Assembly: GCA_963920705.1 (NCBI GenBank) | Contig: OY987230.1 | Location: forward strand, 15,587,320 to 15,651,319 | DNA from: Odiellus spinosus | Lineage: Eukaryota; Arthropoda; Arachnida; Opiliones; Phalangiidae | Direction of reading: 5' to 3' | Length of the DNA stretch: 64,000 nucleotides | Shown here: positions 11,693-63,616 of the stretch, in pieces | Position numbering within the stretch: the stretch's first letter is position 1 | How the letters are laid out: each line of letters opens with the position of its first letter | The notes under the pieces: generated by a model | What the model saw: the letters and a program-made list of their open reading frames with translations, nothing else | What the model was told of the DNA's origin: nothing | Database searches by the model: none | Made by a program: the position numbers and the translations under genes

Positions 11693-12152
11693 ATGTACGA
11701 TCTTACGGAAAGTATCTTTTCACCTTTAGTAAAGTTATATAATTTAATTTATAATTTCATTATAAATACGATTAATATTAATCGATCGTTGAAACATATT
11801 CCCGGTGTCGAAGGAAATATTCTTCTTTCGTCGTTTAAGTTCTTAAAATTAATGTTTAGTGGTCGTACTCCGTTTTTTACAACATGCGTTTGTAAGTCTT
11901 CTATTTTTTTTTTACTAATTTTAGTTTATTAAAGACTTGATTATTTCATCAAAGAAAACTGAGGGGTCCGACACTCTCCTAAATTGTGTACGAAATTTGA
12001 AATCTTCGAATTTTTGGGTTCAGATTCGAATATTTCGCCCAAAATTCGTAAATTTACTAAGATTCAAAAATTTGATGATGATTCGAAGATTCGATTGAAA
12101 TTCGATGGTGATTCGAAGATTCGATTGAAATTCGAAAATTCGATTGAAATTC

Positions 12153-12195
<43 letters not shown>

Positions 12196-15100
12196 AAGAT
12201 AAAATTTGATAAATTTGCAAAATTTGTAAATTTTTCCTAAGATTCGACTAGAAATTCGACATTCGTAAATTTTAGAATCTTAGAAGTGTACGAAATTCGA
12301 AAGAGTGTCGGAACCCTCGAAGAAAACTTTATAGAATTTGACTAGGATTTTCAATATTATGAAAAAAATCGAGATATATCAGTTTTAGATCTTTAATAAA
12401 TATTGTGATAGTCCGTTTGAATTAATTTATTACATATATAATTTAATTAAAATTGATATATTTAAGAATCCATTTTAGTTTAATTTGATATGTAGGATTT
12501 TGCTTCTATTAAATTAATCGTGGAGGTATAGAGATATAGTGAAATTCAACTTGAGTATGCACTGCAGGGCGAACGGACGAAGCTAGGCTACCAGTTATCT
12601 CAGATGCGCATTATTTGGTTGTAAATTAATTGCGGGTTTTACCAATTGAATGTGGCTTTATGAGCTTAAAATCTAAAAAAATATATACTTTTTAATGAAT
12701 TTTTTTGCTTTTATTTCAAACTATAAGCTTCTGTCGAAGTTTTAAGTGGTTTGAACCTCTTACATGGAAAAGATGGTATATACAAATTTTGGATTCTAAC
12801 CACGCCGATGGTTATACTGACAAAAGCCGATACTGTTAAAGTACGTATATAAAGAATAAATTTGAATTTTCAATTCAAAAATATCTGAAATTTTAAATTC
12901 CCATTAGGCTTTACTTAAATGCAAAGAAAACGTTGAAAAGTCCATTCAGTACAGATTCATGAAGTTATGGCTTCGAAATGGATTACTCACAAGGTATTGT
13001 CTTAACCCATATTTGTTGTAATTTATGTCCGTAAAGCCGGATTCACACAGACCTATTTTCACGCGTTTGACGCTTGCCCGCTAATGACATTTCTATGAGC
13101 GCACGAGCGTGAAACGCGTGAAAATAGGTCTGTGTGCATCCGTCACTTGTACGCCAATAGTTTTAAAATTACCTTAAATTTGGAAATTGGTAAATTACGT
13201 GGTATTTTACCGTCTCACGGTAAATTTATGACTAAAAAACCAGTAATATCGTGAAAAATGCGGTTTTTTACGATATTCTTAACCATATTGACTTGGTTAC
13301 TTTGCTCTATCAGAACAGAGCATTGGGAATTTACATTTGCATGTCCATAATGACGCCAAACACGAATACCTATCGAAAAGTAGATTAATTGAGGATTTGA
13401 AGCGTTTAACTTTGACATCTTTTAGCAATTTGTTTACTTTTAATTCGAAAAGTGTTAAATTAAAAAGTACGATAATCTTCCAGAGTAAACCGTAAATTAC
13501 CATTATCCTGATAATTATCGATTTAGAACTCTATGCGCCATTGATTTGTATTTTTTCTCGAGTTACCATAATCCTCTAGCTTTAAATTAGCGAATTCGGA
13601 AAACACTAACCCTTCCCCTGTTTCTTTGTTCTTATTTCGTAGTGACGTTGAAACATGGCGAAGACATCGTAAACTTCTGGCGCCAACAATGTATCCAAAA
13701 ATTATTGAATCTTATCAAGATATTTTCCAAGAGCAATCATTGGTTTTAACTAAGAAATTGGGGAAATCCGCCGGGGAACCGGTTAATTTTCTATCACTAG
13801 TTAGTTACTGCACGTTGGACATTATATGCGGTAAGACGGGATTTTTTCGTTAATTGTTAGCAAAGATAAGTTTAGATAATTTGTATTTATTTTTTCCATT
13901 TAAATTTCTCAGAAACGGCTATGGGGATAAAACTTCACGTACAAGAACAAGAAAATTCGGTTTACTTTCAAAGTTTGCACAAGTAATGCTTAAGTCAGAT
14001 TCATAAAAATATTGTTTTTCATTTTAAACCTTCTTTTTTGATTTGCAAGGTTATGCCAGTTGTGCATAGAGAGAACGGTCAGAGCTTGGTTATGGTTAGA
14101 CGGAATGTTTCTCCTATCACCTCAAGGTCGCAAATGGCGTGAAGCCTTAAGTCATACAAGGAGTTTTACTAAAAAGGTATGCTTAAAGAATACTAAGTCT
14201 ACGAAACTGACTATATTAAATGCTTCGAAAACAATTCGATGCCTTAAAAATTGTTTTTAAGACCCATTTAAGACCTTACTCGTTGGTATTCAAAATAAAT
14301 ACTCAGTTGAGCAATTGGTGGACACCTTTAATGTTTTATTATAAATTAGAATTATGAAAACACAAATTTAATTTATAATTACAAGCTGTATTTTAGTTTC
14401 TTCTTATCTTGGCTTCGTCTTGCAAAGCTAAAGATGTGCTGGACTTTGTTCTGTTTCAGAGCAAAACTCGCATCAGCTTCCATAGTCCCCACCCATAATT
14501 CAGATTTGAGGGTTCTGAAATATTCTAAATAATTACAGAAGCCGATGAAACCCTCCTTTGAAGTCTATTACTCCCGGGTCTTGTCTACCCCTCTCTGTAT
14601 GGGTTAGTTTCGAAAAGCGCGATTCGTACGCCTCCCAGCGGTAGATATTTTCGGAGCGGGAGTTCGTCGAGCGAATATCTCTAGCAGCCTTGGAGTTCGT
14701 CAAAAAAACTTCGTCGTTTTGTGGAGAGACAGATAACTATAACTGTATTTTAAAGTGGTTTAAAGTTGATGGTCGTTTAAAATTGTCCCTAATTCATTGT
14801 TGACTTTGGTCCAAGCCCTAAGTATTAATTCGGACGAATTAGAGATATAGGGACAAATGTTTAAAATCACGATTGAATACTAAGGTCATTAAAGCGTATG
14901 ATATTTGTATGATGTCTGACAAAAAAAAATAAGGCTATAGATAAATTTTAAGGTGATATTTAAAAAAAAAAAAAAAAAGGTCTAAGGGAAAAAATAAGTT
15001 TCTTTCAGTGGTAAAAAATACTATACACATTCATTTTAAATTAATGCAATCATAAAAATTACGGCAGATTATAGACGAACGCAAGAAAAAAGTGGTTCAC

Positions 15101-17837
15101 CGACGAATTTCAATTAATTCAAACAATAACGTGGACCAAGATGACGTACTTCAGACGAAACGAAGTTTACCATTTTTGGATTTAGCTTTAGAGTTGCATT
15201 TAGACCACAAATCTTTTACGTTGCAAAATGTCCAAGATGAAGTTGAAGTTTTTTTGTTAGGGGTAAGTTTAAGCTAGAATATTTTTTAGTAATAAACCAG
15301 TTTTTTATTTGCTTTTAATTTTGTTTATTTTATTTTTTTTTTTTTTATCGTATAGGGACACGATACAACAGCGGTTAGTTTGAGCTGGGCGCTTTACCTC
15401 TTGGGTCTTCACGAGGACATTCAGCTTAAAGTTTTCCAAGAACTTGAAGATGTGTTTGGTTGCGATTTGGAGGAACCAGCTACGGTTGAGAAAGCTAAGC
15501 AACTCAAATACATGGAATGTGTTATTAAAGTAAGTGATAAATTTATTTTTTTAGGCGCAACCACTTCTGTTAAAGACTCGATTGTCTGTTACAAGATCAT
15601 TAAAATATCCTTCCACGTTGAGATTTGCATAGATAAAATACATAGGTCCTTGAATCGCTTAGTCTCTAATTACTATTTGAAATCATTTACTGATAATAGT
15701 TATAATATTATAATTAAATTGGCTCACTAATAATTATTTACAAATGATACTTATTTCTAAACAGATTCATTAAAATATCTGTCTAATTCGTTACTATGTT
15801 TTAAGGTTATTTTATCAAATTCGATTTTACTCTAGAAATATTTGCCTTTGCAAGCTTTAAAGGGAGACTGAAGGAAATATCAAAAGCCCTATTTTTATGA
15901 TTAACTGGTGATGCAGTATCTTTGCTGCCTATGAAATACTTTTATTTTTCATAATTTCATTGAAATTAACGTTTCAAATTAGTAACTTATCCCACGACAA
16001 ATTTAAACTGTCCGACATCTTTGTTCATGTAACAAACGGGAGGCGAGCCAATCAGAAATTTTCTTTGGGAAATGTGGCGCCACCTTTTGAGGACTTGCCG
16101 CTTTTATATACTATTGGAATAAAAAGACGAGATTTGAATGGCTCGCCTCCCCTTATCTCCAGAGCGGGATTCAAAATGGTGGTCGACTTGCAAGTTCGAA
16201 ATTTAAAGGTACTTTTATTTAAATACTGCTTTTTCGAAGTTTATCTATTTTTTGGTACTAAATAATTTATTTTATGGTTTAAGAAATCTAAAAATTAAGT
16301 TATAGCGTATTACACACGATTTCCTTCACTCTCCCTTTAACTTAATTACCTATGTAACAAAATATAACCCCACCTCCCCTCTAAATACCTGAGGCGTATA
16401 AAGGGAATTATTTTGCCTTCGAGCGTTTAAATAACGAATTCAAAACAGCTCTTTCTTTGGTAATAGGAAACCTTGCGTCTCTACCCACCAATCCCTATTA
16501 TTGGTCGAAAGATTAGCGAGGACTTAACAATTGGTATATTAAATTGTAACCTTAATTTCTTAGTTATCTCCTTTAATATTTTTATTTTATTTTTTTACTA
16601 TTAACAAAAACGATTATAGGAGGTAATAAGATTTTGAAGGGTACTACGTGCTGCGTTTTAATCAGCGAAGTACATCGGGATCCCCTTGTTTATCCGGAAC
16701 CGGAAGTTTTCAACCCTGAACGGTTCTCTCAAAACGGAAATTCGGCTCCTTTGGATCCTTTCGCCTTTTTAGCCTTTTCAGCTGGTCCTAGAGGCTGTCC
16801 TGGTGCGATAACATTTAAACTCAATATCTATAGAAAAATATACTCGTGTTTAAGAGTAGATAGCAAAGACCTCTTTAATTTATACGAGGATTATCATAAG
16901 CCGCGTTCGTTTTTAATTGTTTTGAAAGGTAAAAATGGAAATTTTGGAGTCAATTGTAGAGATTATTTGTCAGAAAATGGAATTATTCGATTGAAAAGTT
17001 GATCTGGGCATTCAAAACGGTATGAAAACTCATTCAAACTTAGCTATTGTGTAATTCGTTCGCAATTACTACTTGTAAACAGGAGTATAATTTCTACAAT
17101 GGGTACATAAACTAATCAAATTTGGAACAATAACAACAAAAGATCAAAATATAAGATTTTGAAATCATCTCTCGTTGGTACTGTCAGAAGCGTATGAAAT
17201 AACTCGAATTCGTACTAGGCCTCGGAGTCTAATGAAAACGTCTCGCTACAGTCGTGTGAACGGGAAACTTTATCTACATTCATACAAGCGTATATTAATC
17301 GATTTTTAATCGATAATAAAAATCGATAAATATAAAGCCATATTTAAATAGTTCGATAATCGGTTTACGTATCACCTTCATAAACCGATTTACTTTAGTT
17401 ACATTTGTGGGTTCTTGAAGCCGAATCGATTTGAGACTGGTTACCGAAGCATTCAGTTACAGGAAATCGATTCAAAAATTTGGGATATGGGTATCTGAGA
17501 GAATATTTGCTCTAAGAATAAAAAAGTTCAACAATGAGGTTTTTCAGAATTTGATCGTTACTCATACGCTTCTGTTCTCAGCGATTTAGTGTTCATTAAT
17601 TACCTTGGTAACGTGACATAGTCGTTTAAAATATTATAATTATTCAATAACCATTATTTCTTTCTGGGGTTACTTGTAGGTTCAAAATTCGGAATGTTGC
17701 AGATGAAAACCATTTTGAGCAACATTTTAAGGCGATTTTCGGTCAAGTCACCTCAACCCAGGGATAAGATGATTTTGTCCATGGAAATGGTTCAAAGGCC
17801 GTTGAATGGAATTAATTTAATATTCAAATCTAGATAA
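11693..17837 (+). CDS. Cytochrome P450, CYP4-like (copy B), 11 exons, 519 aa
   Basis: Tandem paralogue of copy A with the same predicted chemistry. Exons: 11693-11891, 12728-12840, 12908-12993, 13643-13830, 13913-13982, 14050-14176, 15068-15262, 15356-15529, 16467-16533, 16620-16802, 17680-17837, all in phase. Motifs: IPGVEG near the N-terminus, WRRHRK in helix C, ETAMGI, GGHDTT in the I-helix (about residue 327), ETLR in the K-helix (about 385), NPERF, and FSAGPRGCPG with Cys at about 466. Every catalytic motif is intact, so the gene looks functional. Copy B has one more intron than copy A: the exon that is continuous at the K-helix in A is split in B between VIK and ETLR by a 937-bp phase-0 intron holding a TTAA-type MITE. 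Introns 1, 3, 6 and 10 also contain inverted-repeat elements. The first ATG of exon 1 is taken as the start. Confidence 0.92.
11961..12318. mobile_element. MITE with A39 tract, intron 1 of P450 copy B
   Basis: The left end GAGGGGTCCGACACTCT and the complement of the right end, GAGGGTTCCGACACTCT, are 17-bp inverted repeats with one mismatch. The 9-bp string AAGAAAACT precedes the left end and follows the right end after one G, as expected of a target duplication. The interior holds short ATTCGA-rich tandem repeats and a 39-base A tract (12154-12192). Confidence 0.7.
13036..13141. mobile_element. Foldback (hairpin) element, intron 3 of P450 copy B
   Basis: A compact palindrome of about 106 bp. 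The arm around CACAGACCTATTTTCACGCG at 13046-13065 is repeated in reverse complement at about 13111-13134. It resembles the small foldback elements common in insect introns. No clear target duplication was seen. Confidence 0.7.
14536..14735. mobile_element. Truncated hAT-like MITE, intron 6 of P450 copy B
   Basis: It begins with CAGAAGCCGATGAAAC and stays closely similar to the element at 7006-7306 for about 200 bp, then stops without the right terminal repeat. It sits in a different intron from the copy in gene A, so the two are independent insertions rather than one insertion duplicated with the gene. Confidence 0.8.
15861..16336. mobile_element. TTAA-flanked MITE (piggyBac-like), intron 8 of P450 copy B
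   Basis: TTAA (15857-15860), then the terminal repeat AGGGAGACTGAAGGAA; the right end is the complement of AGGGAGAGTGAAGGAA followed by TTAA (16337-16340). TTAA target duplications are diagnostic of the piggyBac superfamily. The 476-bp body has an internal inverted repeat (GGGAGGCGAGCCA near 16038 and its complement near 16138) and no transposase. Confidence 0.85.
17185..17574. mobile_element. Candidate MITE, intron 10 of P450 copy B
   Basis: Terminal inverted repeats of 13 bp, CAGAAGCGTATGA and its complement, bound 390 bp rich in ATCGAT-type palindromes. No target duplication was found at the flanks, so the boundaries are provisional. Confidence 0.5.
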
Positions 17838-22682: not shown

Positions 22683-25600
22683 ATGCACCGCGTGTGGTTG
22701 ATCATTTTAGCCCTGTGTCCCTGGACATTGGCTACTCGAATTCAAGTTTCGCCGGAAGGCGGTTATTCCGATATAACGATAGCCATTGACCAGGATATCG
22801 ATGAAGACCAAGAAATTGTCGATCAAATTAAGGTAAGAAACTTTGTTTCACTTTTGACAATCGTTGCGTTTCTAGCCAGGCTTAATATTTTAGATTTTGA
22901 TTTAAAAATGTGTTTTGGTTTAGGATTTCGGTTCTTTTAGTGTAGTTTAATTTTTAAATATTAAACTATAGCGCCCTAAATTTTGCATAGCTTAAAATTT
23001 AACACCAAAAAAGTCGCTTCTATTAGGTATATTTCTACTAAATTTCCTATTTTGTTTATAGGAATTACTTACTGAAGCTTCTGAGTTCTTGTACGTGGCA
23101 ACCAAAGGCACCGTATTTTTCGAGGAAGTGACTATCGCCTTACCACCAACGTGGAACCATAAACCGGGTTACGAAAACTCTCTGAAGAACAATCTTAAAG
23201 ATGCCGATGTCGTTGTGGCTTCTCTAGAATACACCGACGAACCCTTGACCATTCAACCCGGAGGCTGCGGGGAACATGGCTTGAACATTCATTTAACCCC
23301 CAGCTACTTGCGCAACATGAGAGAACCGGCTAGCGTCGACAAAAGCGGAGTACCAGGTGAGTGAATCTTGTTCGTAAAATAATGGTTTTAACAACATTAT
23401 TTCATTATATAGGTAAAAGATTTGTTCAAGAATGGGCAAAGTTTCGTTACGGTGTTTTCGAAGAATTCGTTACGGAGGAGATGGAAAAAGACAGGCGATT
23501 TAAAAGATACTACGATGACGATTCTGGAAAGGTTTGTACTGGTTTGTAAACTGTATCCTAGAACAAGATACCCTTGTGAAAATTCTTAGTAACTATTCAA
23601 AAGTAATTAGAGTAATGGGAAAGGCTGGGGGGAATGAGGCAAATGTTAAATCCCAAAGAGAAGAAGATAGTTTGTGCCAACCTATCTTGAACAATGAATG
23701 CAGTTGTTTTGAAGGCGCAAATTAATCCACGAATTCTGCAAAGAATCGTAAACATGATTTTCCGCCGTTTACAACGATTCAAATTTAATCTACAGAAGAA
23801 GCCATCTACCTGTACGGCTAAAATCGGAGAGCAAGTTTTCTACCTAAACAAGAAAGGTCAGCCCTGCGACCCTAATGAAAACACAGCCGGTTGTTATTAT
23901 CGCCTGTTCAATGATTATGTCAATGAAAATGCTTCTCTTATGTACACTTCCGCATTCGATTCGGTAATGATATCCTCTAAGAATGTTTATAAACTGGTTA
24001 AAACAATAACTAGAACACTTTGTTTCTAGGTAAACACATTTTGCGATGAACAAAATCACAATAAACGTGCACCGAACAAACATAATATTTTATGCAGTTA
24101 TCAAAGCGTATGGAAAGTCATAAGCTCCCACAAGGATTTTAAGATCGCCCCGTAAATCAGCTTTTTAGGTTTAACTCTATAAATACGCTTCTGATAATTC
24201 TAATTATATTTAAAGAATTGCTAACGTTTTTCGGCCTCGAAACACCGTTCCAAATTTTTCTTTCGTACGAACCATTAAAGATAGTGGAAAAACAGTTCTG
24301 ATACTCGACATCTCTGGAAGTATGGCGGTAAGACAAATAATTCAAGCAACAAAAAAAGCCTTCAGATGTCTGTGTAAATAAATTTTCATATGGTTGAAAT
24401 CTAATTGAAAACTATATTAAAAACAATTAGTTTTTCAACGAGGCACCTATTAAGCTACTTCATCAAACAGCCACCAGTCACATCTTGGAATTTATTCCTG
24501 ATGGTAGCGAAGTGGGTATCGTCGTATTTGGAACTAATGCCAAGACGGTTCACCCCATGACCAAAGTTGATAACTCAACCCGCAAAACCTTGGCCGCTGC
24601 TATTCCCATCAAGGCAGATGGAGGCGGTACCGCCATCGGAAAAGGCTTAATGGAGGGTTTAGAGGTTTTGAAACGATCAGGTGTCGTCGAGGGTGGTGTC
24701 TTGTTACTCATAACTGACGGAGAAGAAAACGAATCCCCGAAAATAATTGACGTGAAGGACACTCTTTTGGAGGAAAGAGTGGTTATTTCTGTCATTGCGT
24801 ACGGAGAAAAGGCGGATAAGCAGTTGGAAGCCTTAGCCTTGGAAACTGGTGGCCGAGCTAGTTTCTTTCGAGATATTAACAACACTGAATCGGCCAACTC
24901 CCAGCAACTTAATGAAATGATGTTGCAAGCGAGCACTGCCCAAGCCGACGTCAAATTCGAACCAGTTCGGGTAAGCGTCAATAGAATCTCCATTTGCTAC
25001 GCTAAAGAATTAGGTGCAAATTAATTTAATTGCAGTTGAAATCCACTGGCTTCGTCTTACACACCCAAGAAACCAAGGATACAGTCTTTCTGGATCACGA
25101 ACTAGGAAAAAACACTGTATTTTATTTTTCATGGACGTACAATGCCTCACCGGAAATAGAACTTATCAGTCCTTCAGGTACCGTTTACAACTGGCAGAGT
25201 CAAGGAACTTTTTATCTCAAAGACAAGAATAAGATTCGATTCAAATTTGAGGATGCGGAAGTAAATTTTTGTTAAAATTCTTATTACTTTTAATTAATAA
25301 TATTAAAGTACAACAGACAGGATTTTGGACCATAATTATTCGGAAACGGTTGAACGAAAATCCGGACGTTTCGTTCACGTTAGTGTCTGAACCAAAAGAC
25401 CCCAAAAAACAACCAGTCAGGGTCAAAAGTTGGATGAGTAACGTTGAAGTCGACCCGTTGGCAAATAAAAGTTTCGCGCGCATTTACGCTAGAGTCACCA
25501 AGAATGACGTGCCTGTTTTAAACGCAACAGTAGTGGCGGTCATATCCGGACCAGGAAGTAGCTCCAAAGTTCCGTTGTCTGACGATGGAAAAGGTACAGT

Positions 25601-28600
25601 TTCTTTTAATTTAAGATTTGTGTTTAATTTATCCAAGTAATTGTTTGCGTAACAGGAGTAGATATATCTGAGGATGATGGAATTTACACTGGGGTAGCGA
25701 CCATGAGTACCTTCAAGGGCAACGGGCGTTTTACCGTCCGGGCGCGAGTGTCTAGTAAAAAAGGAGCTAACTTGAAACTGCGACGCAAGTACAAAGGACG
25801 AAGGAAAACGAGTGGGAAACGAAACAAGCGTTTTGCGGACGTTGCTATTGGAGAGTTAACCGTCGGTGATTACGATGATTCCAAGGACGAAGAATCCACC
25901 GATGATGATAATAAATCTATAAGACTGGCTAACATTGACAGGGGGCACGAGTTGGACTTATTGGGTGATGCGGATGAGCTGGATGATGTAACCAATGATA
26001 TTACAACGACAGAACCTACACCGCAACCGGATGAACTCTCACCCGATGAAGCGGGAAACGCCAATGAGACCTCAATTGATGAAGATTATGAAGAAGATTT
26101 TGATGAAGAATTTGAGGAGGTCCCATTGGGACCGTTTGAAAGAGACGAGGATGCTGGTACTATAATTGTCAGTAATTGGACTCCTGATCTTAAGGACACA
26201 TCGGCTCCCAGTAGGGTTAGCGATTTCATTTTAGTCAATGACCAGTGGGAAGGTGACGAGAAGCGCGTAACCTTATCCTGGACCGAATCTGGTGATGATT
26301 TGAACCAGGGTATTGGTGAGTATCTCAATATATCTTAATAAAAACTATGTTGTTGCAATTTTGTTTTTGTCTGTTTTTAAGCTACAAGTATAGAAATCAG
26401 GGAATCCAATATCCTGGAAGACCTCATTGACCATTTTGATAAGACGCAGCGGAAAACCGATTTGCTGGACGGAAATCTGGTCCCTGGTAATCCTGGTGAA
26501 GTCAAAAACGTCACTATATCAGTGACGTCTACCATTCCTAATAGTCGAACCTATTTTGCTCTGAGATATATTGACGAAGCTGGGAACAAGGGCGACGTAT
26601 CAAACTTTGTGACTGTTTCCTTGGTTAAACCATTGGGTAAGGTTCAGAACATTTGTTTTATTAATTTATTATTTTACTGAAACTAGTAATTAAACTAGTT
26701 TTGAATTTTTAGATATTTGTCAAATGGAAGGAGACGAGATTTGCTCGAGAGCAAATGGATTTTGCGTATTAGATAATTCCAAAACTGTAGGTTATTTCTG
26801 TAACTGTTCCTACGGGATACCATTACAAAACGACGGTGAAGTTTGTACCGGTAAATGTTTTTAGTCCATTCTAGTTTTTTTATCTTAAGCTGATATTGTG
26901 TTAATTTTTAACAGACATTTGTACAGCGAAAGGGAAGCACCTTTGTTCCAACGTAGACGCTGATTGCATTATAAACGAACCAGAAAATATTACTTTCAGT
27001 TGCTTGCCTCGAAAGGGTAGGCTCTAACGTGATCATATCAAGTAACTTTATAATCAATAAACTTCATATTTTAAGATTCTTGCGAGTTAAACGGAACTGG
27101 TGTTTGCTCAGTGTTCGGAGCCAGTTGCGAGGTTGATCAATCGGACAAGTCGCTCTTTAGCTGCAAGTGTCCACCAGGACAATCCAAAGACAACGATGGA
27201 GTATGTGTTGATGCATGCGCTCTCATTGGCAACGAGGAATGTTCCAAAGTTGATGCATTATGTTCCTTAAATATAACTGATAACTCTACCTACATTTGTG
27301 AATGCCCGATTGGACTGACCTTTGACTCGGACGGAACCTGTGCGGACGTATGTCAAACTAAAGGACGCGAACTTTGCGCATATCGGGGGGCTACTTGTCA
27401 AGTTAATGAATCCGATAATAGCACCTTCAATTGCGAATGTCCCGTTGGGTTTTCGTTCAACAAGGATGGTAAATGCGCCAACGTTTGCGAACTTGAAGGT
27501 GATAGTTATTGCTCAACCAAAGGGGCCCGATGCTATGTGAATGACGAAGACCCTTTAAATTTTACTTGTATATGTCCAGTGGAACTATCGTTTAACGATG
27601 ATAATGAATGCGTGAACGCTTGCGAACTACTTGGACAAAATCATTGCTCGACTTTAGGAGCTAATTGTGTCTTAAATGATGAAGACAATTCAACATTTAG
27701 GTGCGAATGTCCGGTGGGACTGAAGCCTGGCGAAGACGATCAATGTATGAACTCTTGCGAACTACTTGGTCAAAATCATTGCTCGAATTTGGGAGCTAAT
27801 TGTGTCTTAAACGATGAAGACAATTCAACATTTAGGTGTGAATGTCCGGTGGGACTGAAGCCTGGCGAAGACGATCAATGTATGAACTCTTGCGAACTAC
27901 TTGGTCAAAATCATTGTTCGGCTTTGGGTGCTAATTGTGTCTTAAACGATGAAGACAATTCAACATTTAGGTGCGAATGTCCGGTGGGACTGAAGCCTGG
28001 AGAAGACGATCAATGTATGAACTCTTGCGAACTACTTGGTCAAAATCATTGCTCGGCTTTGGGTGCTAATTGTGTCTTAAACGATGAAGACAATTCAACA
28101 TTTAGGTGCGAATGTCCGGTGGGACTGAAGCCTGGCGAAGACGATCTGTGTATGAACTCTTGCGAATTGCTTGGTCAAAAACATTGCTCGGCTAAGGGAG
28201 CTAATTGTGTCTTAAACGATGAAGACAATTCAACATTTAGGTGCGAATGTCCGGTGGGACTGAAGCCTGGCGAAGACGATCAGTGTATGAACTCTTGCGA
28301 ATTGCTTGGTCAAAATCATTGCTCGGCTAAGGGAGCTAATTGTGTCTTAAACGATGAAGACAATTCAACATTTAGGTGCGAATGTCCGGTGGGACTGAAG
28401 CCTGGCGAAAACGATCAGTGTATGAACTCTTGCGAATTGCTTGGTCAAAAACATTGCTCGGCTAAGGGAGCTAATTGTGTCTTAAACGATGAAGACAATT
28501 CAACATTTAGGTGCGAATGTCCGGTGGGACTGAAGCCTGGCAAGAATAATATATGTATGAACGTTTGTGAACTACATGGCGATGATTATTGCTCGACCTT

Positions 28601-31600
28601 GGGTTCTAGTTGTATTTTAGACGAAGAATACAATTCAACATATAGATGTGAATGTCCGATAGGACTTACGCCTGACGAGGACGATAAATGTATAAACGCT
28701 TGCGAACTTCTTGGTGATAATCATTGCTTAACCTTGGGAGCTAGTTGTATCTTGAACGAAGAAGACAATTCAACGTTTAGGTGCGAATGCCCGACAGGAC
28801 TTAGTCCTAACGACGACGATAAATGTGTGAACGCTTGCGAACAACTTGGTGATGATTATTGCTCGACCTTGGGAGCTAGTTGTATCTTGAACGAAGAATC
28901 GTTTGTATGCGAATGCCCAAAAGGACTCAAGCCTAACGAAAACGATACGTGTGTGGACGCTTGCGAACGAAATGGCCACAGACATTGTTCAGTCTTAGGA
29001 GCTAGTTGTGCTTTAAACGAAGATGATAACTCAACGTTTCGGTGTGAATGTCCCAAAGGATTTAAGCCCGGGAAAGACCAAAAGTGTATGGACGTTTGCG
29101 AAATTGAAGGAAACGATTTTTGCTTGAATCGGAATGGCATTTGCGTCGTGCTTGATCGTGAGAACGAAGTTTATAATTGTGAATGTGCAGCTGGGCTTTT
29201 CAAAGACGAGAACGGGATTTGCGTCGATATTTGCAAAAATATGGGTGACCGAGCATGTTCTCCCTTAAATGCTAATTGCGTGGTATCAAAAAACGAAAAT
29301 ACTACATTTTTTTGCGAATGTCCACAAGGACTCTATGAAAGTCCAATGGGTATCTGCGGGGACATATGCGAGGCTGAAGGTGACCTCGCCTGTGCTGATA
29401 CGAACGCCGAATGTCGTGTTAATCAAACCGACAACTCTACCTATTATTGCGAATGTCCAGTAAATTTGTTTCCCGATTCAGACTCAAAATGTGTTGACAT
29501 TTGTAAAATCAAAGGTAATAAAGAATGTTCCAAGAAAAAGGCTAACTGCGTCCCAAAGCCCACCGACAGTAGTACTTATGACTGCAAATGCTACGAAGGA
29601 CTGACCTTAAACGAAAATGGACTATGCGAAGACGCTTGCGAAAGGGAGGGCAACGTTAAATGCGCTAAAAACAACGCTCGTTGCGTTTTGGAGATGAATT
29701 GCACTTGTACTGATATTGTTTGTAGTACGATACAAGACAGATCCAGATACAATTGCCAATGCAACCATGGGTTTACCGCAGACGAAAACGGGATTTGCCA
29801 AGGTAAATATTTTTACCCCGTAATAAGTCTTTGTCTAACATTTTCTAACCTTCACTCTTTCATCTAGACATTTGCTACACCAAAGGCGCCGTTCATTGCG
29901 AAAAGGCTAGTGCTATCTGCGAGGTAGTCCCGGATGACAAGACTTCATACTCTTGCAAGTGCCCGTCTGGTCTAGATTTTAATAAAGAAGGAGTCTGTTC
30001 CGGTATTATAAATCAACATTTGGCAACAGATCTGTCATTCATTTTAATTTATGTTTTTCATTTCCTAGATTCCTGTGAATTGACTGGTAACGACTTATGC
30101 CAAAAAATGAATGCGATTTGCGTTCTTGACGATAAACCATCCACATATACTTGCGAGTGTGCTCCTGGTTTAAAATTTGACTCGAACAACGTGTGTTCTG
30201 GTAAGATTCGTAAGCCATCAATATAGGGTTTATGCTAACGTCAGTCACTTAAACCTAACAAACAATATAGGAAATGTCATACTTTTCGAAACAAAACTAT
30301 TATAGTGTTTATGATTGTTCTTAGATATCTGTACCATAAACGGAACGAAACAATGTTCCAAATTAAACGCGAAATGCGTGATTGACTCGTATAATCCTCT
30401 AAAATACGATTGTCGATGTTCGGATGGATATACAAAATTGAAAACCACTGGAGCATGCGTAGGTAAGACTTGGTACATCAAATTGTCTTTGAAAGAGACC
30501 AGGTATTTATAATAATTTTTCAAACATAAAGATGTCTGCGAGAGTACGGGTAATGAGGTTTGCGCCCTTCTTAAGGCCAAGTGTTCGGTCAGTCTCAATG
30601 AAGTATCCACCTATAGTTGCGACTGTCCCGCTCATACTTATCCCGATGCCAAAGGAGTTTGCTCTGGTACATTTTCTCCTTCACTATGGTATATCCAAGC
30701 TCTGACGTTCTCCTCTTTTAATTAGACGCGTGCGTAGTTCGAGGCAATAAGGAATGTGCGTCCCGAAATGCGAAATGCGTCTTGGACAGTCTTGATGAAA
30801 AAGGTTTCTTTTGCGATTGTCCCATTGGACTATTTCGTAACAGAAATGGCGCTTGTTCAGGTAGATACTTCAAGTCAAATTTATACCTACGTCTTTCAAG
30901 ATGTCGATTGAACTAAATCGTTCGTAGATATATGCGAGGCTAAGGGTAAGGAAATATGCCAGCGGAAGAAAGCAGTTTGCCAAATCGATGCCTCGAATCC
31001 TATTGTTTTCTCTTGTAAATGTCGAGCTCCTTTCTCACCCGGGCCCAACGGAAAATGCACTGGTACGATACGTTGTTAGTTTACATCGTGTCCATTCTTA
31101 ATCGTCGACATTATTATCCATTTAATTCAGATAAAGAAGTTGATGTACAAATTTACGACAAGAACCAAACCGTACTCCAAGGTCAAAAGGTTATATTTCG
31201 ATGTAGAGATGAGGGTAGAAATAGATTAGATGTTAAATGGGTCCGCAAAAACGGCCGTGCTTTGCCTTCGTTAAGTACCGACCATTTGGGAGAGTTGACC
31301 ATTAGATACGTCCAGCCAGGAGACAGTGGAATATATATTTGTCACGTGACTAACGCTCCTAACCGAAAAGGGTACAAAAAGAGGGCCAAACTACGCGTCC
31401 TACCTGGTAAGTCTATTAGTTTTCCATTCCATTAACAAAGTTTTAATACAATTTTTATCTTGTACCAGTCAACTGTCCTCCCAACACTTTTCAATGTCGT
31501 AGTGGGATATGTATTGATTCTAACAAACGTTGTGACCGACGTAAAGACTGCCCTGGGGCGGATAATTCTGATGAACTATATTGTTCTTGGAGAGGGGGTG

Positions 31601-32153
31601 CCAGACCTGGTAGGACCACCGTTTATCGCGAAAAAATAGTCACAACACCTTCGCCGTTTACCCCTGACAAACACCTTCCTCTCATGGGTACGTTGGTAAT
31701 AATAAACTTTTCCCTAAATAATAAACCTAAATTAACTTGACTGATTCCTACAGACGATCCTAATCGAGTTTCCAATGTTAATGTAAAGCTTTACGATCGT
31801 GAACAAGTTGTGACTCAAGGTTAGTTTCTTACTGGTTCTGGATTTAATGAGAGCCAAATAAATGGAATCATTCATTATTTCATGATTCCATAGGTGGAAA
31901 CGCCATATTTCGATGTCGGGACGAAGGTCCGAATAGATTTCCAGTTGAGTGGTCGAGGCTAGATAGACTGCCTTTACCCAGGAGTTCAGTGGTGGATGGT
32001 ACTAGGTTTAAAATCGTTAATGTCCAACCGAGTGACAGTGGTTCATACATTTGTAAAGCCGTGGGGGTTTCGGACATATACGGCGAGGCTAGTCAAGTCG
32101 CTGTCTTAAAAGTAAATCCTTGTCAAGGATATTTTTGTTCATTTATGAAATGA
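22683..32153 (+). CDS. CLCA-family protein with EGF array, Ig and LDLa modules, 24 exons, about 2506 aa
   Basis: Predicted secreted CLCA-type protein. Exons: 22683-22832, 23062-23356, 23413-23531, 23796-23963, 24030-24151, 24216-24327, 24431-24970, 25036-25260, 25317-25593, 25656-26315, 26382-26636, 26713-26850, 26915-27016, 27076-29802, 29868-30002, 30069-30200, 30325-30462, 30532-30666, 30726-30860, 30928-31062, 31131-31406, 31469-31687, 31754-31819, 31894-32153; phases all agree. Order: signal peptide (1-17), CLCA N-terminal domain, VWA with full MIDAS (DISGS about 316, Thr about 389, TDGEEN), beta/FnIII region, acidic linker, about 28 six-Cys EGF-like units, Ig, LDL-receptor class A, Ig. 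The usual HExxH reads QEWAK. A polybasic KRNKR lies at about 728. No transmembrane segment is seen. The last exon may read through a possible donor (AAA|GTAAAT), so further C-terminal exons cannot be excluded. It is paralogous to the gene at 35299. Confidence 0.88.
27615..28559 (+). repeat. Seven near-identical 135-bp EGF-coding tandem units
   Basis: Inside the 2.7-kb exon 14, units 5-11 of the EGF array are each exactly 135 bp (45 codons) and differ at only a few bases, whereas units 1-4 and 12-20 are well diverged. Each has Cys spacing C-x7-C-x6-C-x11-C-x-C-x11-C and an NST glycosylation sequon. This is recent in-frame tandem expansion, and it is a place where short-read assembly could miscount copies. 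Confidence 0.92.
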
Positions 32154-32835
32154 TTCGTTTCAAATTAAATATTTTTATTTATATACCACAATATTTTGGT
32201 TTAGTTTTCGAGCATATATGTTTCAGCAGTTTCAAGACCATATATTTCCAAAAATGTAATTTTAAGTGATGTCTGCTTCGGCTTAGGCTTCAGTGATGAA
32301 GTAATTAGCGTATATCTTTAATATTGTCGAATCAACATTACATCACTAATTCTCAATGTAGTAACAAATTTGGTCCTTGGATTTTAGATAAGATTTAGGC
32401 CTACTAAATTAATTTAAAAAAGAAGAGTTACACATGGATGCGGGTTTTAAAAAATTACTTTAGTTAAAAGCTTTATAAAACCTAATCGAAAGCTTAGGCT
32501 TTAAAACTTTTAAAGTTATTTTTAAAAATCTTCCATGTGTATTAATAGTTTTTAAGGAGAATTTTTGCCATTTTAATTTTAAAGATTTTTTAGTAAAAAC
32601 CAAAAAAAAAAAAATAATAATAATAATAACATAAGCTTGCCTAAAAAATTCCTATGGGCCGGTTTGTTTGTTTTCTGATGATAGTAATGGGAGCATTGAA
32701 AAAAGAATACCAATATAATTATAGAATTTAAATATTTTCAACTGGGAATATTTCTTAAATAATTTTCAGTATTGAGGATGCATGTATATGGTAAGGTATT
32801 TTTGGTTTTCACAATTCTTTTGTCAATTCTTTTAA

Positions 32836-33961
32836 AGGGAGAATGCAACCTAATTACAAGTGATTTTTTATCGATTCCTTATCGTTTAAATAGGCCTAAT
32901 CCATCGATAAAAAGTTCACAATACAAATATTAAACTAGAAATAAATTTAAAACTTACCCTGAAAATAGGCTTAGCGGGATTCATGTAGATCCTGAATCGC
33001 GTCCGTGTAAGGTCTAGCGACCAATGAACAAAGGCCCGTCGTTCACGCGAGATCTCCACGAGACTTACGTCGCGTGCGATTGGTCCACGGACCGTGTATA
33101 TACCGGACGAGAAAAGCAAGCGTTTTTCTGCCCCGTGCACCGACTCTCAATAGAGCTCAGAAAATAACCGTACAAGGTCGTTTATTAAATTCAAAATGGC
33201 GCTTGTCTTTAAGTCGCTGCGAATCCAAGATAACATTAAAAGGCAGAAACATTCGATCCACAATGATCATTATTAGTCAAAAAGGTATTTATTTTAAATT
33301 TACAATATCTTATTATAGCGCTAGACATAAAACATGGGCCTAAAATTGATTATTAACGAGACGATCGTCAAATTTCTTTAAGCCTCGGTTTATGTATTCT
33401 TGTTTTCATTCATAAACCATACTTAGACCTAGGCTTAACTGGATCTGTATTGTTCTGACACAATGAATACATACACCGCTGGTTTTTCGTAATTTTTGCG
33501 TAATATTAACACCCTAATTTAAGTTGAACTTCATTCAAACCAAAATTTAAAGCTAATTTTAACATTAAATTAAAATAAGCGCGAACGAATTATAACGTAC
33601 GAAAACAGGATAGCCATTTTGAAATTTCGCTCTCACGTGACATAAGAGTCACGGAGAAAAAAACGACCTTGTACCGCTATTTTCTCTCTCGCTTCAGAGC
33701 CCAATGCTCGGGAAGGTTTTTTTGTACTGTGGAAGGCTGGCGAATTCTCGTCCGGTATATACACGGTCCGTGATTGGTCGCTAACCTTACACGCGAGGAA
33801 AACAGGATCTACTTGAATCCCACTAAGCCTATTTTCAGGGTAAGTTTTAAATTTATTTCTAGTTTAATATTTGTTTGTAAATATTTTCAGTAGTGGATTA
33901 GACCTATTTAAACAATAAGGAATCGATAAAAAATCACTTGTTGTTAGGTTGCATTCTCCCT
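32836..33961. mobile_element. TTAA-flanked element with about 280-bp inverted repeats (piggyBac-like)
   Basis: TTAA at 32832-32835 and 33962-33965 brackets 1126 bp. The ends read AGGGAGAATGCAACCTAA and its exact complement, and the inverted similarity continues inward for roughly 280 bp through shared strings such as TTACCCTGAAAATAGGCTTA and CGTGTATATACCGGACGAG. There is no transposase frame. It has inserted between the two CLCA paralogues. Confidence 0.85.
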
Positions 33962-34190
33962 TTAAGCAGAAGAATGCCAGTTTACAACAGCAAAACTCCG
34001 CCTTTTTAAAAGTCTAGGTGATAACAAAATGAAAACTTATAAGGGTGATGACGCCTAATGTCCTGTGTTATCTCGATTAGATTGCTTTATATTCGATACA
34101 TCATTTCAAGTTCCGCTGAATGATAAGAATGCATCAGCTAAACGGATTTCAAAGAGGTATTTTTAAAACCTCGCTATCGTAGATCGTTAA

Positions 34191-35298: not shown

Positions 35299-38200
35299 AT
35301 GAAGTTGGTTGCATTTTTAACGTTTGTCGTGTGTCTCCGACTTGGAAAATCTACGATAATTTCGATATCTGATGATGGTGGTTATTCAAATATCGTCGTG
35401 GCTATCGATACTGAAGACGAAGATGTCAAAATACTGACAGCTATCACGGTAATATATTTTACATTTATACCATTATATCAATTTTTTTATACTTTTGAAA
35501 GAATAGTTATTTTTCGTCACAAGAAATAATTTTATAACAATTTTTGCCATTGAAATAATCATCGCAATTTTATGTAAAGTGCGACAACCAGCCAATTAAT
35601 ACAGCCTACTGATTAAAAGCTGCAAGAGTTTCTTCCTTTTGTGAAATTATCAAAATATATCACTACAATGGAAGCTAATTCTAGGAAATCCAACGCTAAT
35701 CTAAACTAGTTGACTAGAAACATTCAAGTCTTTGGTCATCTTATATGCTCACGATAAAACATGGAGCATTGCTACGTTTAGGCGCTTTAAGTTGTCGCAC
35801 TTACAATAGAACAAACAATAATCAAACCTTTATTCAACTTATTATCATTTTATATAATTGTAATTTATGAATTTTACAGTCGAATTTTCATACTAAAAAT
35901 ATCAATATAAATAATATTTTGATCATACGCAGGAACTTCTAACTAACGCTTCGTCGTTTTTGTACACGGCCACGAAAGGATCCGTGTTCTTTGAACAAGT
36001 AACGATCGTTGTACCATCGTCGTGGTCACCCAAGCCCGAATATTCTGAAACTTTAAAGGACTACTCCAAAGACGGACACATCCTAGTTTCAGAATCGGAA
36101 TATAGTAGCATGCCATCAACAGTTCAACCAGGCGATTGCGGCGAACCTGGAAAGAAAATAGAACTCCCTCTCGATTACCTAAGGAATATGAACGAAATAA
36201 GCATTGTTCGTGCTGAAGGTGACCCTGGTCAGTATTTTAATCTATAATATGAACCAATTATTTAAACTTTATGTGTTAAACTGGTTTATATTCAATTTGA
36301 CTTACAGCGAAAAGGTTTGTCCAGGAATGGGCCAAGTTCAGGTATGGAGTTTTTGACGAAAGTGTGAGCACCACGGCCGCTAAAGAAAACCCACGATTGA
36401 AAACTTATTACATGGATGGTAATGATGTAAGTTTAAGAACAATAACTATAGTATATTCAACGGGTCAAGTAAAATATGTAGACGGAATGATTTAATCAGA
36501 AATGTAATCTGATTCAACAATGTTTACAAACGTATAGTTTCGACCAGCGAGTTGCACTTCAGAAATGGGATCAATGGGAATTTTTAGGAATACCCGAAAG
36601 AACGAACTATGTAACCCTTCTGAAGATAAGGATTGCAAGTTTCTAATATTTGATAAAGATTACGTTACGCAGGACGCTTCTATAATGTACTCAACGGCCT
36701 ATGATTCCGTAAGCACTTGGAAATCGCAAAACTAGGCTGCAATCTTCTTTTTTGAAATATACAAATTTTACGAATTTGTAGATTAAGTCCTTCTGTAACG
36801 AAACCCAACACAACAAGAAAGCGGTAAATCTGCAAAATATAAAGTGCCAGTTTAAAAGTACTTGGGATGTGATCTCTAGCCACGAAGATTTCAAAGCTGG
36901 GTATTTAAATGCTATTTATAATATTTGTCTTACAGTACGTTTCATAAACGTATCTTTTATCTAGGGTACCATCAACAATCGTTCCACGAGATACGGTACC
37001 AAAATTTCGATTCTTGCGTACTGTAAAGAGCAGTGGGAAAACCGTTATGGTCCTTGACGTATCCGGAAGTATGGCGGTAAGAAAATTAGAATAATAAAAA
37101 AAAAAATTATAGATAGGTAACCTAAAAAGATTATTTAAAATTTGCGTAGGGGGTTCCCATATCGCTTCTTCATCGTACAACCACTAGACATGTCTTGCAT
37201 TTCGCCCCTGAGGGTAGTGAATTGGGTATTGTTATCTTCAGCAGTAACGCCCAGATTAAAAAACGAATGACAACAGTAACGAACGCTACCAGGACGGAGA
37301 TAGCCAGTACATTACCCTCAACTACTGGAGGAGGTACGGCAATTGGAAGGGGTTTACAGACCGGCTTAGAGGTAAGCTTATAATATTTGTTAGTTCAATG
37401 TAGCGATTCACCACTACTTATCTCTTTAGGTGTTGCAGTCCTCTGGGATTGCGGAAGGCGGTGTCATACTCTTGATCACGGATGGGGAAGAAAATCAAAA
37501 ACCCCATATTGATGTAGTTTTACCCAGTATTGTTAACCAAGGTGTTATCGTTAACGTCATAGCGTACGGTGACAATGCTTCTCGTAAGCTGGAAAATTTA
37601 GCTCACGCGACTGGAGGAACCGCCACTATTTTCCGAGACATATCCAACAAAGAAGCAAATGTGGAGGATCTGGGCTATATGATTATGGAAGCCACTGCCA
37701 CTCAGGCGGACATTAACCTTAAGTCTCAGAAAGTGCGTTAGTCTATACTGTGGCAAAAAAAACTCTAGTTGTAATTCGATTGCATTGTGCAGGTCAAATC
37801 TGAGAGGTTGCTATTCGGGAATCCCGAAGAATTGACTTTGGAAGTTCCTTTAGACGAAGAGTTGGGAAAAAATACGGTATTTTCTTTCAGGTGGACATAT
37901 GACGTTGTACCCGACATCCAACTCGTCAGTCCATCTGGAAAACCATTTGACAGGTACAGTGATCAATGCACCAACTCTATTAAACATCAGGAATTCAAGT
38001 TTGAGACCGCCGAGGTATTATATCAGATATGTTTACAAAGAAATATGTTTTACTAAATTACATTTATATTCTAGACAGGGACATGGAGAATAGTAGTTAT
38101 CAAACAAGCTTCAGAGAGCATCGACATTCAGTTTACTCTTACATCAACTCCGGCCGATTCTAAGGTACAGCCCTTGATTGTAGTGTCCTGGCTTAACGGT

Positions 38201-39772
38201 ATCGAGGTAGATCTTGGGAAATCTAAAACCTACGTCAAAGGATACGCCGAAGTTAGCAAATCGAAACGACCAGTTGTGGAAGCCGTGGTTACTGGTTTAT
38301 TCGAATCGCCGACTGGAACCATTGAGATTTCTTTAAAAGACGATGGCATTGGTAACAACTGGGTGTAACAACTTCTAGGTTTTTTTTTTAATAACAAATA
38401 CTGCTCTAGGAGTGGACAGTGCGAAAAATGACGGAATTTACTCGGGCGCATTGACCGATTTTACTGGAAACGGACGCTATTTATTCAGGGCCAGAGTAAT
38501 ATCAGGCGAGAACGCCCGAATTAAAAAGCCCAATATTCGTGAAGGACGTATTGGTAAAAGATCAGCAACTGAAATAGAACAGAATGAAGATGATGAAGAC
38601 TTTATTCTGGAACCAATAACATCCAAATTTGAACGGCTATCCGAAGGTGGTACGATAACTGTTCTTAACTGGACACCAAATCTGGGGGATATTGTCAAAC
38701 CCGCGAGGGTGGTAGACTTGGAGGTAACAAACTCTTCTTACATACGTGGTGTTAGAGCCGTGGCTCTTTCCTGGACATCTGCTGGAGATGATTTCTTTAT
38801 TGGGAATGGTGGGTCAATCCGCTAATAGCAATTACTATGTAACTATGTTCTCAAACTTTTGTAAACACTTTAGCGAGTCACCTAGACATAAGGATGTCTG
38901 TAAACCTGGACGATTTAGTACAACATTTCGAAGAGCAGTGGAAGGTCAACGAATCATTCGTTCTAGCGGGTAATATTTTGCCGACAGAAGGGGGAGTCCC
39001 GATGGTGGCAAAACTATTAGTTCCCGATGAACTTTTTCTTAAAAGTGGGGAAAACCAAACTATTTCTGAGACACAGCAGGTATATGTGGCCATGAGGTAT
39101 ATTGACGAAAGCAACAACGAGGGTTACATATCCAATGTAGTTTCGGCGCTACTTATCAAAGACGTTACCCCACCAGCCACTATTGTTGATCTGGAACTTT
39201 TCAACTTGACGCGAGACGATGCGGCTATGAACTTTTGCCTACGTTGGACGGTACCTGGTGACAACTCGTGGGAAGGAATAGGTAAATATTTTTCTAAAAC
39301 GGTGCTGTTCAAAGTCTAATACGTCCAAATTGTAGCCAATTTATTGGACTTGCGTATATCTACTCAAGCGGAAGATATCATCACGAATTTTTCAGCTCAG
39401 TTACGTTTGATCGATTCGTTCATTTCAAACGGTAGTCTCATTCCCACCGAAGGTGGTTCAGAAAATACAGTGAACTTGCTCATACCCAGAGGTTTAGTTC
39501 AAAATGCGACACATCTTTACTTTGGCCTAATATACCTTGATGAAGAAGGAAATACCGGCAATGTGTCAAATATAGTACAGTTGGAGATCAACCCACTCGA
39601 ATACTCGAACGGGGAGACCAATGAAAGACGAATGAACAGGAGTACTCATACCATCATTATCGGTATCATCATAACCATAGTTTTCGCTTTAGGAATACTA
39701 TCTGGTGTGTTTTTCTTTATAAAGCGTAGTAAGGATTACAAACTAGTGACCGTATATTCGTCAAACATCTAA
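35299..39772 (+). CDS. CLCA-family protein, membrane-anchored, 13 exons, 1077 aa
   Basis: Classical CLCA layout. Exons: 35299-35448, 35933-36227, 36308-36426, 36538-36708, 36782-36900, 36965-37076, 37150-37371, 37430-37732, 37793-38014, 38075-38351, 38410-38808, 38874-39281, 39336-39772, all in phase. Order: signal peptide (1-18), CLCA N-terminal domain, VWA with complete MIDAS (DVSGS, GGGTAIG, TDGEEN), beta-sandwich and FnIII-like segments, C-terminal membrane helix (IIIGIIITIVFALGILSGVF) and a short basic cytoplasmic tail. Mammalian relatives are secreted or shed zinc proteases that modulate the TMEM16A chloride channel through VWA. Here the HExxH site reads QEWAK, so protease activity is predicted lost. 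A dibasic GKR is at about 714. Exons 1-3, 6 and the beta-domain exon have exactly the same lengths as in the upstream paralogue, which shows tandem duplication. Confidence 0.93.
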
Positions 39773-41763: not shown

Positions 41764-42275
41764 TTTAAATACTTAAATATAAATATATCTCAAATGGCAA
41801 GGAATAATAAAATAAAGAACTTTCAAAACAACGATCTCGCGTGAAATATCTTGAAAAAGCGTCTGCTTATAATAAATTATTGACGGAAATAAGTACAAGT
41901 CACAGGAAATTGTAAGATAAATTTTGTTTGATAAGAAAAAGTACTTACTGGTCTAAACTCTAAATAAAGATTTGGACTGGTTCCCCAGCACTAAAAAGTG
42001 CAAAAAACATTTAAAGAACTTATTCAAATAACGATAAAAAATATGTAAAAGGTAAATAATGGGTTTCTATATGCGCTTTGTTTCCTAGTTCCAAAATATA
42101 TTTATTTTAAAGTTTCTGATAAAAACAATAGTGTTTATATACAGCCCATAATGTCTAATTGATTTTTTTTTTTAGAATCGTCTGGTTTGTAGTCCACTTC
42201 CATCCATACCTGCGAAGGGCATGTCTGTGGGAAAGTTGTACTAATTTTTCCTCTTTAATAATTAGTTTGACTCGC
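41764..42275. promoter_or_regulatory. Head-to-head promoter region of BCAS2 and MTRES1
   Basis: Only 512 bp separate the two start codons on opposite strands, so both promoters must lie here. A pyrimidine tract ending in AG at 42174-42175 looks like a 3' splice site, suggesting that MTRES1 has an upstream 5' exon. No TATA box or CpG-rich stretch is evident. This is inferred from the arrangement, not from motifs. Confidence 0.45.
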
Positions 42276-42908
42276 ATGTATAACGGTATGACGTTAAATT
42301 TAACTAAGCAAATACGTTGGCTCGTTAATTTAAACCGCCGAGTCGGTTTAATCGGGAAAGTTACGAGTTACTCTAGTTTTCAAAGTGGATTCGGTTTAAG
42401 TCATGTGCCTCATCGGATCAATAATTCAAACGCTTTATTAACTCAAACTCAAACATCTACTGTACAATTGAAATTCATCCGTTTAAAAAGTAAAAAAGGA
42501 AAATCTAAAGGCAAGGAGGTTGACACTGACGATGAGTTTGACGTTGATGAAAGACAAGACAAAGATGAGGAAGAAATTGCCGGTGCGAAAGACATTAAGA
42601 CTAGCCTAACTTCGCTTAGAGTAGATGGTGTATTAAAAGCTGGTCTAGGCATATCGAAAGCGAAGATCGAAAATGAGTTTTACGAATCCAAAATATACCT
42701 GAATGGTAAAAAGGTATTGAAGAAAAGCCACCAAGCTCGCGTCGAGGATGAAGTTGATTTGATTTTAGGACACTCAAGTTTGAACCCGGAGTTTTTACAA
42801 GTGTCAAGAGTAGTAATTATGAAGGTAGAAGAAACAGAGTCTGGTAAGATAATTGTTAAATTAAGGCGTTTCAAAAATTTATTAGTCGAAGATTACACAA
42901 GAGTGTAA
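42276..42908 (+). CDS. MTRES1: Mitochondrial transcription rescue factor 1 (S4-like RNA-binding), 210 aa
   Basis: Mitochondrial RNA-binding protein (C6orf203 family) that associates with mitoribosome or mtRNA metabolism. The conserved C-terminal S4-like domain is clear: SLRVDGVLKAGLGISKAKIE, then FYESKIYLNGKKVLKKS, then VEDEVDLILG and a basic end KIIVKLRRFKNL. Before it lies an acidic linker preceded by a KSKKGKSKGK cluster, as in other members. The N-terminus is basic and Ser/Asn-rich with few acids, fitting a mitochondrial presequence. The frame is open from 42159, but a probable splice acceptor at 42175 and the first in-frame ATG favour 42276. The coding part downstream is a single exon. 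Confidence 0.88.
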   Translation: MYNGMTLNLTKQIRWLVNLNRRVGLIGKVTSYSSFQSGFGLSHVPHRINNSNALLTQTQTSTVQLKFIRLKSKKGKSKGKEVDTDDEFDVDERQDKDEEEIAGAKDIKTSLTSLRVDGVLKAGLGISKAKIENEFYESKIYLNGKKVLKKSHQARVEDEVDLILGHSSLNPEFLQVSRVVIMKVEETESGKIIVKLRRFKNLLVEDYTRV

Positions 42909-59950: not shown

Positions 59951-60129
59951 TAAGATGATTTTTATTTTAATTTCTCTTATTTTGTTTTTTCAAGTATTTG
60001 TTCGTATGAACAAACAAAAGATAACAAGAGTGTTGTAAATATTAAGAATAAGAATAAAAATAAATTATAACTAATCTTGTTTTTTTACAAAGGGTACCCC
60101 TTGTAAAAAAAAAATCAACTATTTTTTTT

Positions 60130-63350: not shown

Positions 63351-63605
63351 TCAATTTCCCCAATCTCAATTTCCCCAATCTCAATTTTCCCAATCTTAAT
63401 TTTCCCAATCTCAATTTTCCCAATCTCAATTTTCCTAATCTCAATTTTCCCAATCTCAATTTTCCCAATCTCAATTTTCCCAATCTCAATTTTCCCAAAT
63501 CTCAATTTTCCCAAATTTCAATTTTCCCAAATCTCAATTTTCCCAAATCTCAATTTTCCCCAATCTCAATTTTCCCAATCTCAATTTTCCCAATCTCAAT
63601 TTTCT
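63330..63605. repeat. 15-16 bp satellite
   Basis: A shortened derivative of the 24-bp unit: AATCTCAATTTTCCC repeated at 15-16 bp, with the AAAAATCTC part lost. It grades directly out of the 24-bp array. Confidence 0.9.
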
Positions 63606-63616
63606 CTCAAATTCCC

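Follow-up and report, generated by a model that had tools for sequence, protein, structure and literature searches.

A CLCA gene with an EGF-Ig-LDLa-Ig tail, apparently an undescribed layout, in Odiellus spinosus (Opiliones)

CLCA proteins are regarded as metalloproteases that cleave themselves and have a regulatory role towards TMEM16 channels and mucus. The family definition used in PMC3650047 is the CLCA_N domain, and that paper treats CLCAs as metalloproteases in which the HExxH motif is usual but not invariant (present in 72% of the family according to its Table 1, which covers the domain family), its losses being most likely five independent events. According to PMC11231702, the required motif is HEXXHXXXGXXDE, a change of H155 or E156 abolishes the cleavage of CLCA4, and the release of N-CLCA4 requires self-cleavage; the MIDAS of its VWA domain acts on TMEM16B, and MIDAS is described there as potentiating TMEM16. 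The cut in mammalian CLCAs lies near residue 700 (PMC10669480). As reported in PMC6851300, the BSR goes with the N-terminal product and the FnIII domain with the C-terminal one, and both products stay associated in CLCA1.

Among matrix proteins, perlecan carries LDLa repeats followed by one Ig in its domain II (PMC4398486). The same source describes an HSPG2-like protein of the sponge Oscarella carmela, known to us by description only, which resembles the gene reported here in having VWA modules (among five Ig modules) and differs in that the passage concerned does not mention CLCA_N. No CLCA with EGF or Ig modules was found in the titles and abstract openings of the open-licence literature, though databases may hold an entry that has passed unremarked, and neither "EGF" nor "immunoglobulin" occurs in the main text (text only) of PMC3650047. 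The gene described below, a CLCA fused to an EGF-Ig-LDLa-Ig tail, is apparently an undescribed layout within the known CLCA family.

Architecture of the gene

The window is the whole stretch of DNA that was analysed, 64,000 nucleotides of Odiellus spinosus (C6:15587320-15651319), and the genome searched comprised 443 Mb in 286 contigs, of which C1, C3, C5, C6, C8 and C11 are named by these labels; its 89 Chitin_bind_4 matches agree with an arthropod source. Here, W1 is the fusion gene and W2 a neighbouring CLCA gene. Their features, in window positions, are as follows.

22683..32153, + strand: W1, whole gene, 24 exons, 2506 aa (spliced model; introns 1-10 checked at their borders against other CLCAs)
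22683..22736, + strand: signal peptide, aa 1-18, the strongest hydrophobic stretch of the protein (cleavage point placed by eye)
22755..24146, + strand: CLCA_N, aa 25-283, exons 1-5 (Pfam PF08434, E 2.6e-61)
23427..23441, + strand: QEWAK, aa 154-158, where the catalytic HExxH of PMC3650047 and PMC11231702 is expected (alignment)
24295..24895, + strand: VWA, aa 312-477, with the MIDAS elements DISGS, the T in GGTAIG, and TDG (Pfam PF00092, E 2.7e-15; PDB 6pyo, E 5e-15)
25820..25831, + strand: RNKR, aa 725-728, putative furin-type site in the BSR-FnIII linker, conditional on a continuous exon 10
25832..26140, + strand: acidic stretch of the linker, about 100 aa (alignment)
26201..26635, + strand: FnIII region, aa 852-974, last CLCA part (alignment to eight other CLCA proteins; no Pfam call)
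26637..26712, + strand: intron 11, phase 1, 76 bp, where the CLCA half meets the tail (splice scores)
26713..31062, + strand: 28 EGF-type units, exons 12-20 (spliced model, Cys spacing, structure model, Foldseek)
27613..28898, + strand: 135-bp tandem expansion in exon 14, 9.5 copies, 90% matches (TRF)
31131..31406, + strand: Ig domain 1 (FRCRDEG), exon 21 (Pfam Ig_3/I-set; tree)
31469..31687, + strand: LDL receptor class A module and Thr/Pro linker, exon 22 (Pfam PF00057, E 2e-09; matches C8 LDLa modules)
31754..32153, + strand: Ig domain 2 and C-terminus, exons 23-24 (Pfam; tree)
35299..39772, + strand: W2, start read by eye, with CLCA_N and VWA domains, two stretches resembling FnIII and, in its last frame, a segment of membrane type

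In the spliced model, all 23 introns of W1 are GT-AG and the frame is intact over the 24 exons, with a single terminal stop and a product of about 275 kDa unmodified. The domain order is signal peptide, CLCA_N, VWA, BSR-like region, FnIII, 28 EGF-type units, Ig, LDLa and Ig. An earlier note, made from the letters alone, had proposed a 24-exon CLCA-EGF-Ig-LDLa-Ig gene of about 2500 aa; the clean splicing, the length of 2506 aa and a Pfam search of the joined protein (CLCA_N, VWA, EGF, one LDLa and two Ig, the latter as Ig_3/I-set, in the stated order) bear this out. The borders of introns 1-10 agree with those placed by intron-aware alignment of the proteins of W2 (18/20), C11a (19/20) and C5 (18/18, introns 2-10), three exceptions in 58 borders across other CLCA proteins, with alignments that stop short of intron 11; this check is not blind, because W1 or W2 had served as the query in modelling the three proteins, but their intron places come from their own DNA. 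In the tail, exon borders were set by the reading frame, the splice signals and the distances between domains. Introns 9 to 23 are all in phase 1. Phase-1 introns are the expected pattern for shuffled EGF, Ig and LDLa modules, and we propose exon shuffling for W1 because the introns of the junction and the tail are of this phase.

Upstream of W1 lie two tandem cytochrome P450 genes (window 6204-17000; PF00067 E 3.1e-18 and 1.1e-19, one exon each). Between W1 and W2 there is an inverted-repeat element (32832-33965) with 182-nt arms that are 86% complementary; a similar peptide reading, seen by eye 3' of the CLCA gene C3a, makes it perhaps a dispersed mobile element. Further downstream are a mitochondrial transcription rescue factor 1 gene, apparently a single large exon (42159-42905; MTRES1_C E 1.5e-21), minus-strand frames that by eye resemble ionotropic receptors (43315-50905; three were scanned with Pfam, with no match at 0.01) and large tandem arrays (55895-64000) with units of 22, 26, 24/48/72, 45 and 17 bp and a GC skew down to -0.78.

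The CLCA half and its relatives in the genome

With 207.9 bits for PF08434 (cut-off, 25.6), W1 falls within the definition of the CLCA family, and it shares with mammalian CLCA1/2/4 and with W2 the signal peptide, CLCA_N, VWA with MIDAS, BSR-like region and FnIII. These last two were aligned with W2, C3a-d, C5, C11a and C11b, and Pfam makes no call there. The differences from the family are QEWAK in place of HExxH, the missing anchor, the long acidic linker and the tail. The MIDAS motif of the VWA domain, which matches PDB 6pyo (the human CLCA VWA), is complete. The HExxH metalloprotease motif is missing; self-cleavage depends on this motif, and since it is needed for cleavage in the experiments of PMC11231702, W1 is expected to be a pseudoprotease whose MIDAS motif is complete. 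In lacking HExxH, W1 resembles the active-site-substituted CLCAs of PMC3650047.

At least ten loci with CLCA_N were located in the genome: four in tandem on C3, one on C5, two on C11, W1 and W2 in the window, and one more on C6 at 16.63 Mb (C6b). W2 and the other eight copies were spliced for comparison; the C6b model is partial and its 3' part uncertain, and it served for the tree and the motif only. HExxH is gone in W1, W2, C11a, C11b and C6b and retained in C3a-d and C5. The live active sites read HEWAH, HEWGH or HEWSH, C11a lacks the first His only, and W2, the closest copy to W1 (47% identity), also has QEWAK. In a tree of the copies, those with and without the motif split at 100/100, the tree being unrooted and C6b a long partial row. 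It was built without an outgroup because contig searches gave no relative: a profile of five CLCA sequences, run against genomic contigs (25 pattern matches) and viral contigs (54), found none. The C3 genes (C3:7280000-7309999 onward) are four in tandem with HExxH intact, three of them closely alike. C6b (C6:16632500-16642499) is divergent: its active site reads ANWAK, and its partial model yielded no DxSxS MIDAS.

The tail was seen at W1 alone among the ten loci. In CLCAs the FnIII region comes last, followed at most by a membrane or GPI anchor, and W1 departs from this with a tail of about 1530 aa and no membrane segment; hydrophobicity over the whole protein gave no transmembrane segment beyond the signal peptide. 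A hydrophobic segment of membrane-spanning type is found in 8/9 of the other loci. In C3a-d, C11a and C11b it comes behind FnIII without a change of frame, and W2 and C6b have it in an open frame further on; none was seen in the stretch of C5 examined. Because these eight loci show such a segment, W1 has probably lost its membrane anchor.

The linker between BSR and FnIII, the region of the cut in mammalian CLCAs, is 150 aa long in W1 vs 48-121 aa in eight other copies, that of C3a being also long, and non-acidic. All three foreign CLCA queries treated the stretch of exon 10 that holds RNKR as an intron, but through splice sites of 1.5-4.4 bits, below every model intron, and its GC content is 0.45-0.46 vs 0.14-0.37 in introns; with an alternative in-frame donor at 25866 and its acceptor (8.5 bits), RNKR would remain. 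We compared basic sites in the linkers of copies without HExxH (dead) and with it (live), leaving out C6b, whose linker was not modelled. Counts in copies that are not independent were 4/4 dead vs 1/5 live for [KR]R not before P (p 0.048; 2/5 live if sites before P are counted), 3/4 vs 1/5 for RXXR (p 0.21) and 2/4 vs 0/5 for RX[KR]R (p 0.17). The not-before-P rule drops C3c (ARRP), which had been noticed in the alignment before the rule was fixed. It would be over-reading to conclude that losing HExxH goes neatly together with gaining a furin site, given 3/4 vs 1/5 for RXXR and 4/4 vs 1/5 for [KR]R; the tie between a dead active site and a basic linker site is a weak one, a lead and not a result.

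The tail and its source

The EGF array is concentrated in exon 14 (27076-29802, 2727 bp), which holds twenty units (3-22). Six cysteines are present in 26/28 units and the exact spacing C7C6C11C1C11C in 22/28, with 169 Cys and 24 N-glycosylation sequons in total, and PF00008 scored above its cut-off in both pieces scanned, so the units classify as EGF-like. Unit 2 (exon 13, 26915-27016) has only four Cys, unlike its neighbours. Differences among units 7-13 number 68, 28 and 92 at codon positions 1, 2 and 3. The median dN/dS of 0.36 comes from 83 usable of 210 pairs of 45-aa units among which gene conversion may distort the value. From this codon-position bias and dN/dS, the array seems to be maintained as protein.

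A model of three EGF units had a mean pLDDT of 88.5. Its best PDB matches by Foldseek were EGF arrays (Pfs28, uromodulin, DLL1 and Notch-1) at TM-scores of 0.24-0.35, with VIA Z below 5. The EGF alignment comprised five triples of units, two of which share unit 14, and the EGF query gave 0 matches to PDB sequences at 0.01. In the genome, the query from exons 15-20 returned 13 matches, 12 at W1 and a weak one (E 6.7e-4) at C1:18690507.

The Ig-LDLa-Ig query had 19 matches in the genome (4 at W1, 7 on C8 and 8 on C1), none at another CLCA locus. On the + strand of C8, a gene combines an array of LDLa modules with an Ig domain (20323807) and, exon by exon, four matches to Laminin_B (20330603-20335435); because of this combination on one strand we take it to be perlecan/Trol. 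The perlecan/Trol character that the earlier note had given to the Ig/LDLa part thus finds its counterpart in this gene. W1 shares with perlecan/Trol (HSPG2; the C8 gene) the FRCRDEG-type Ig and the LDLa module, and differs in a single LDLa between two Ig, not an array, and in an EGF array of another type; no Laminin_B or LamG was found in the four pieces of W1 scanned with Pfam (aa 1371-1963 lay outside the scan).

On C1 (18616000-18692800, minus strand), EGF, Ig1 and Ig2 exons follow one another in repeated order, one gene having a Thr/Ser-rich repeat upstream. As in W1, an EGF unit leads into Ig1 and then Ig2. Here there are one or two EGF units, not 28, and no CLCA match, and no LDLa turned up in the 26 kb and the two short loci examined. 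In a nine-row Ig tree of 77 columns and long branches, W1 Ig1 groups with the C1 Ig1s (91/92) and W1 Ig2 with the C1 Ig2s (85/82). Perlecan was weighed as the direct donor, but this moderately supported placement points to the C1 genes, although the highest pairwise identities of W1 Ig1 and Ig2 are to the C8 Ig (47% and 44%). Since the EGF-Ig-Ig order is common to the C1 genes and the tree groups their Ig domains with those of W1, perlecan need not be the donor. With moderate confidence, the tail would come from a C1-type, perlecan-related gene, to which LDLa was added and in which the EGF unit was multiplied.

Readings of the locus

At the DNA level, the evidence for the structure of W1 is strong; what can be said of its function by analogy is modest. 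With slightly better than even confidence, we read W1 as a secreted CLCA, dead as an enzyme, which exon shuffling has joined to an EGF-Ig(-LDLa)-Ig body and whose VWA domain is held in the matrix. A CLCA gene would have been joined via phase-1 introns to the body of a perlecan-related secreted protein, and the product would be secreted. The EGF rod and the Ig/LDLa end would bind extracellular matrix and anchor the VWA there, where its metal site may still bind a membrane partner, perhaps a TMEM16-type channel as in mammals. A cut by a furin-type convertase at RNKR may stand in for the lost self-cleavage, so that the CLCA part is released or unmasked; the halves would perhaps remain together, as the CLCA1 products of PMC6851300 do. 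That a CLCA ectodomain has been turned into a matrix protein, in the words of the earlier note, is what we infer. A further proposal, that an entire branch of the CLCAs in this arthropod gave up self-cleavage and passed the cut to a furin-type convertase and that W1 is a matrix-stored, convertase-released regulator on a perlecan-like EGF/Ig scaffold, we regard as doubtful.

A purely structural matrix protein, in which VWA and CLCA_N are adhesive and have no link to chloride channels, is the likeliest of the rival readings, though less likely than not. It accords with the missing anchor, the 24 sequons of the EGF array and the perlecan-like end, but the MIDAS that mammalian CLCAs use on TMEM16 in PMC11231702 is complete in W1, though the partner is not thereby shown.

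Another possibility concerns transcripts. Intron 11 contains ATTAAA, and read-through from exon 11 closes after 14 residues, so a short CLCA-only isoform is possible. On this basis the locus might yield two transcripts, through alternative splicing or through the choice of 3' end: one for a short, secreted CLCA that stops within intron 11, and the fusion as a minor isoform. We think this unlikely: ATTAAA or AATAAA is common to seven other introns (1, 6, 8, 10, 13, 22 and 23), the repeats of the tail look selected, and the tail is reachable only via exon 11 or another upstream exon.

It is less likely still that two genes, a CLCA (exons 1-11) and an EGF-Ig-LDLa-Ig gene (exons 12-24), were wrongly joined. 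Separate EGF-Ig-Ig genes do exist on C1, and CLCAs elsewhere in the genome stop after FnIII or a membrane-type segment. However, the two halves are separated by 76 bp only, and donor (7.0 bits), acceptor (7.4 bits) and phase fit at the junction, the total of 14.4 lying above the median of the 23 introns (13.5; minimum, 6.8). Read upstream, exon 12 reaches a stop before any ATG, and exon 21 is the only one of exons 12-24 preceded by an in-frame Met. A junction intron stronger than the median and an exon 12 that lacks an in-frame start make two genes unlikely; the missing start and the 76-bp gap likewise led us to reject the tail as an independent gene. W1 is thus very probably one gene, with or without a short isoform. 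The single fused gene of the earlier note is favoured by the DNA at the junction (strength and phase of intron 11, no start at exon 12).

A decaying, non-functional locus, which the lost protease motif, the four-Cys unit 2 and the recent repeat expansion in exon 14 might suggest, is very improbable against a 7.5-kb coding frame free of stops and frameshifts, conserved Cys spacing, a dN/dS of 0.36 and a kept MIDAS.

Read as a matrix-held, catalytically dead CLCA, W1 would be a clear case of phase-1 exon shuffling creating a new arthropod matrix architecture. It raises the question of how a CLCA unable to cut itself is activated, and the combination of a dead protease, a complete MIDAS and a matrix tail would set the adhesive role of the VWA domain apart from the protease role.
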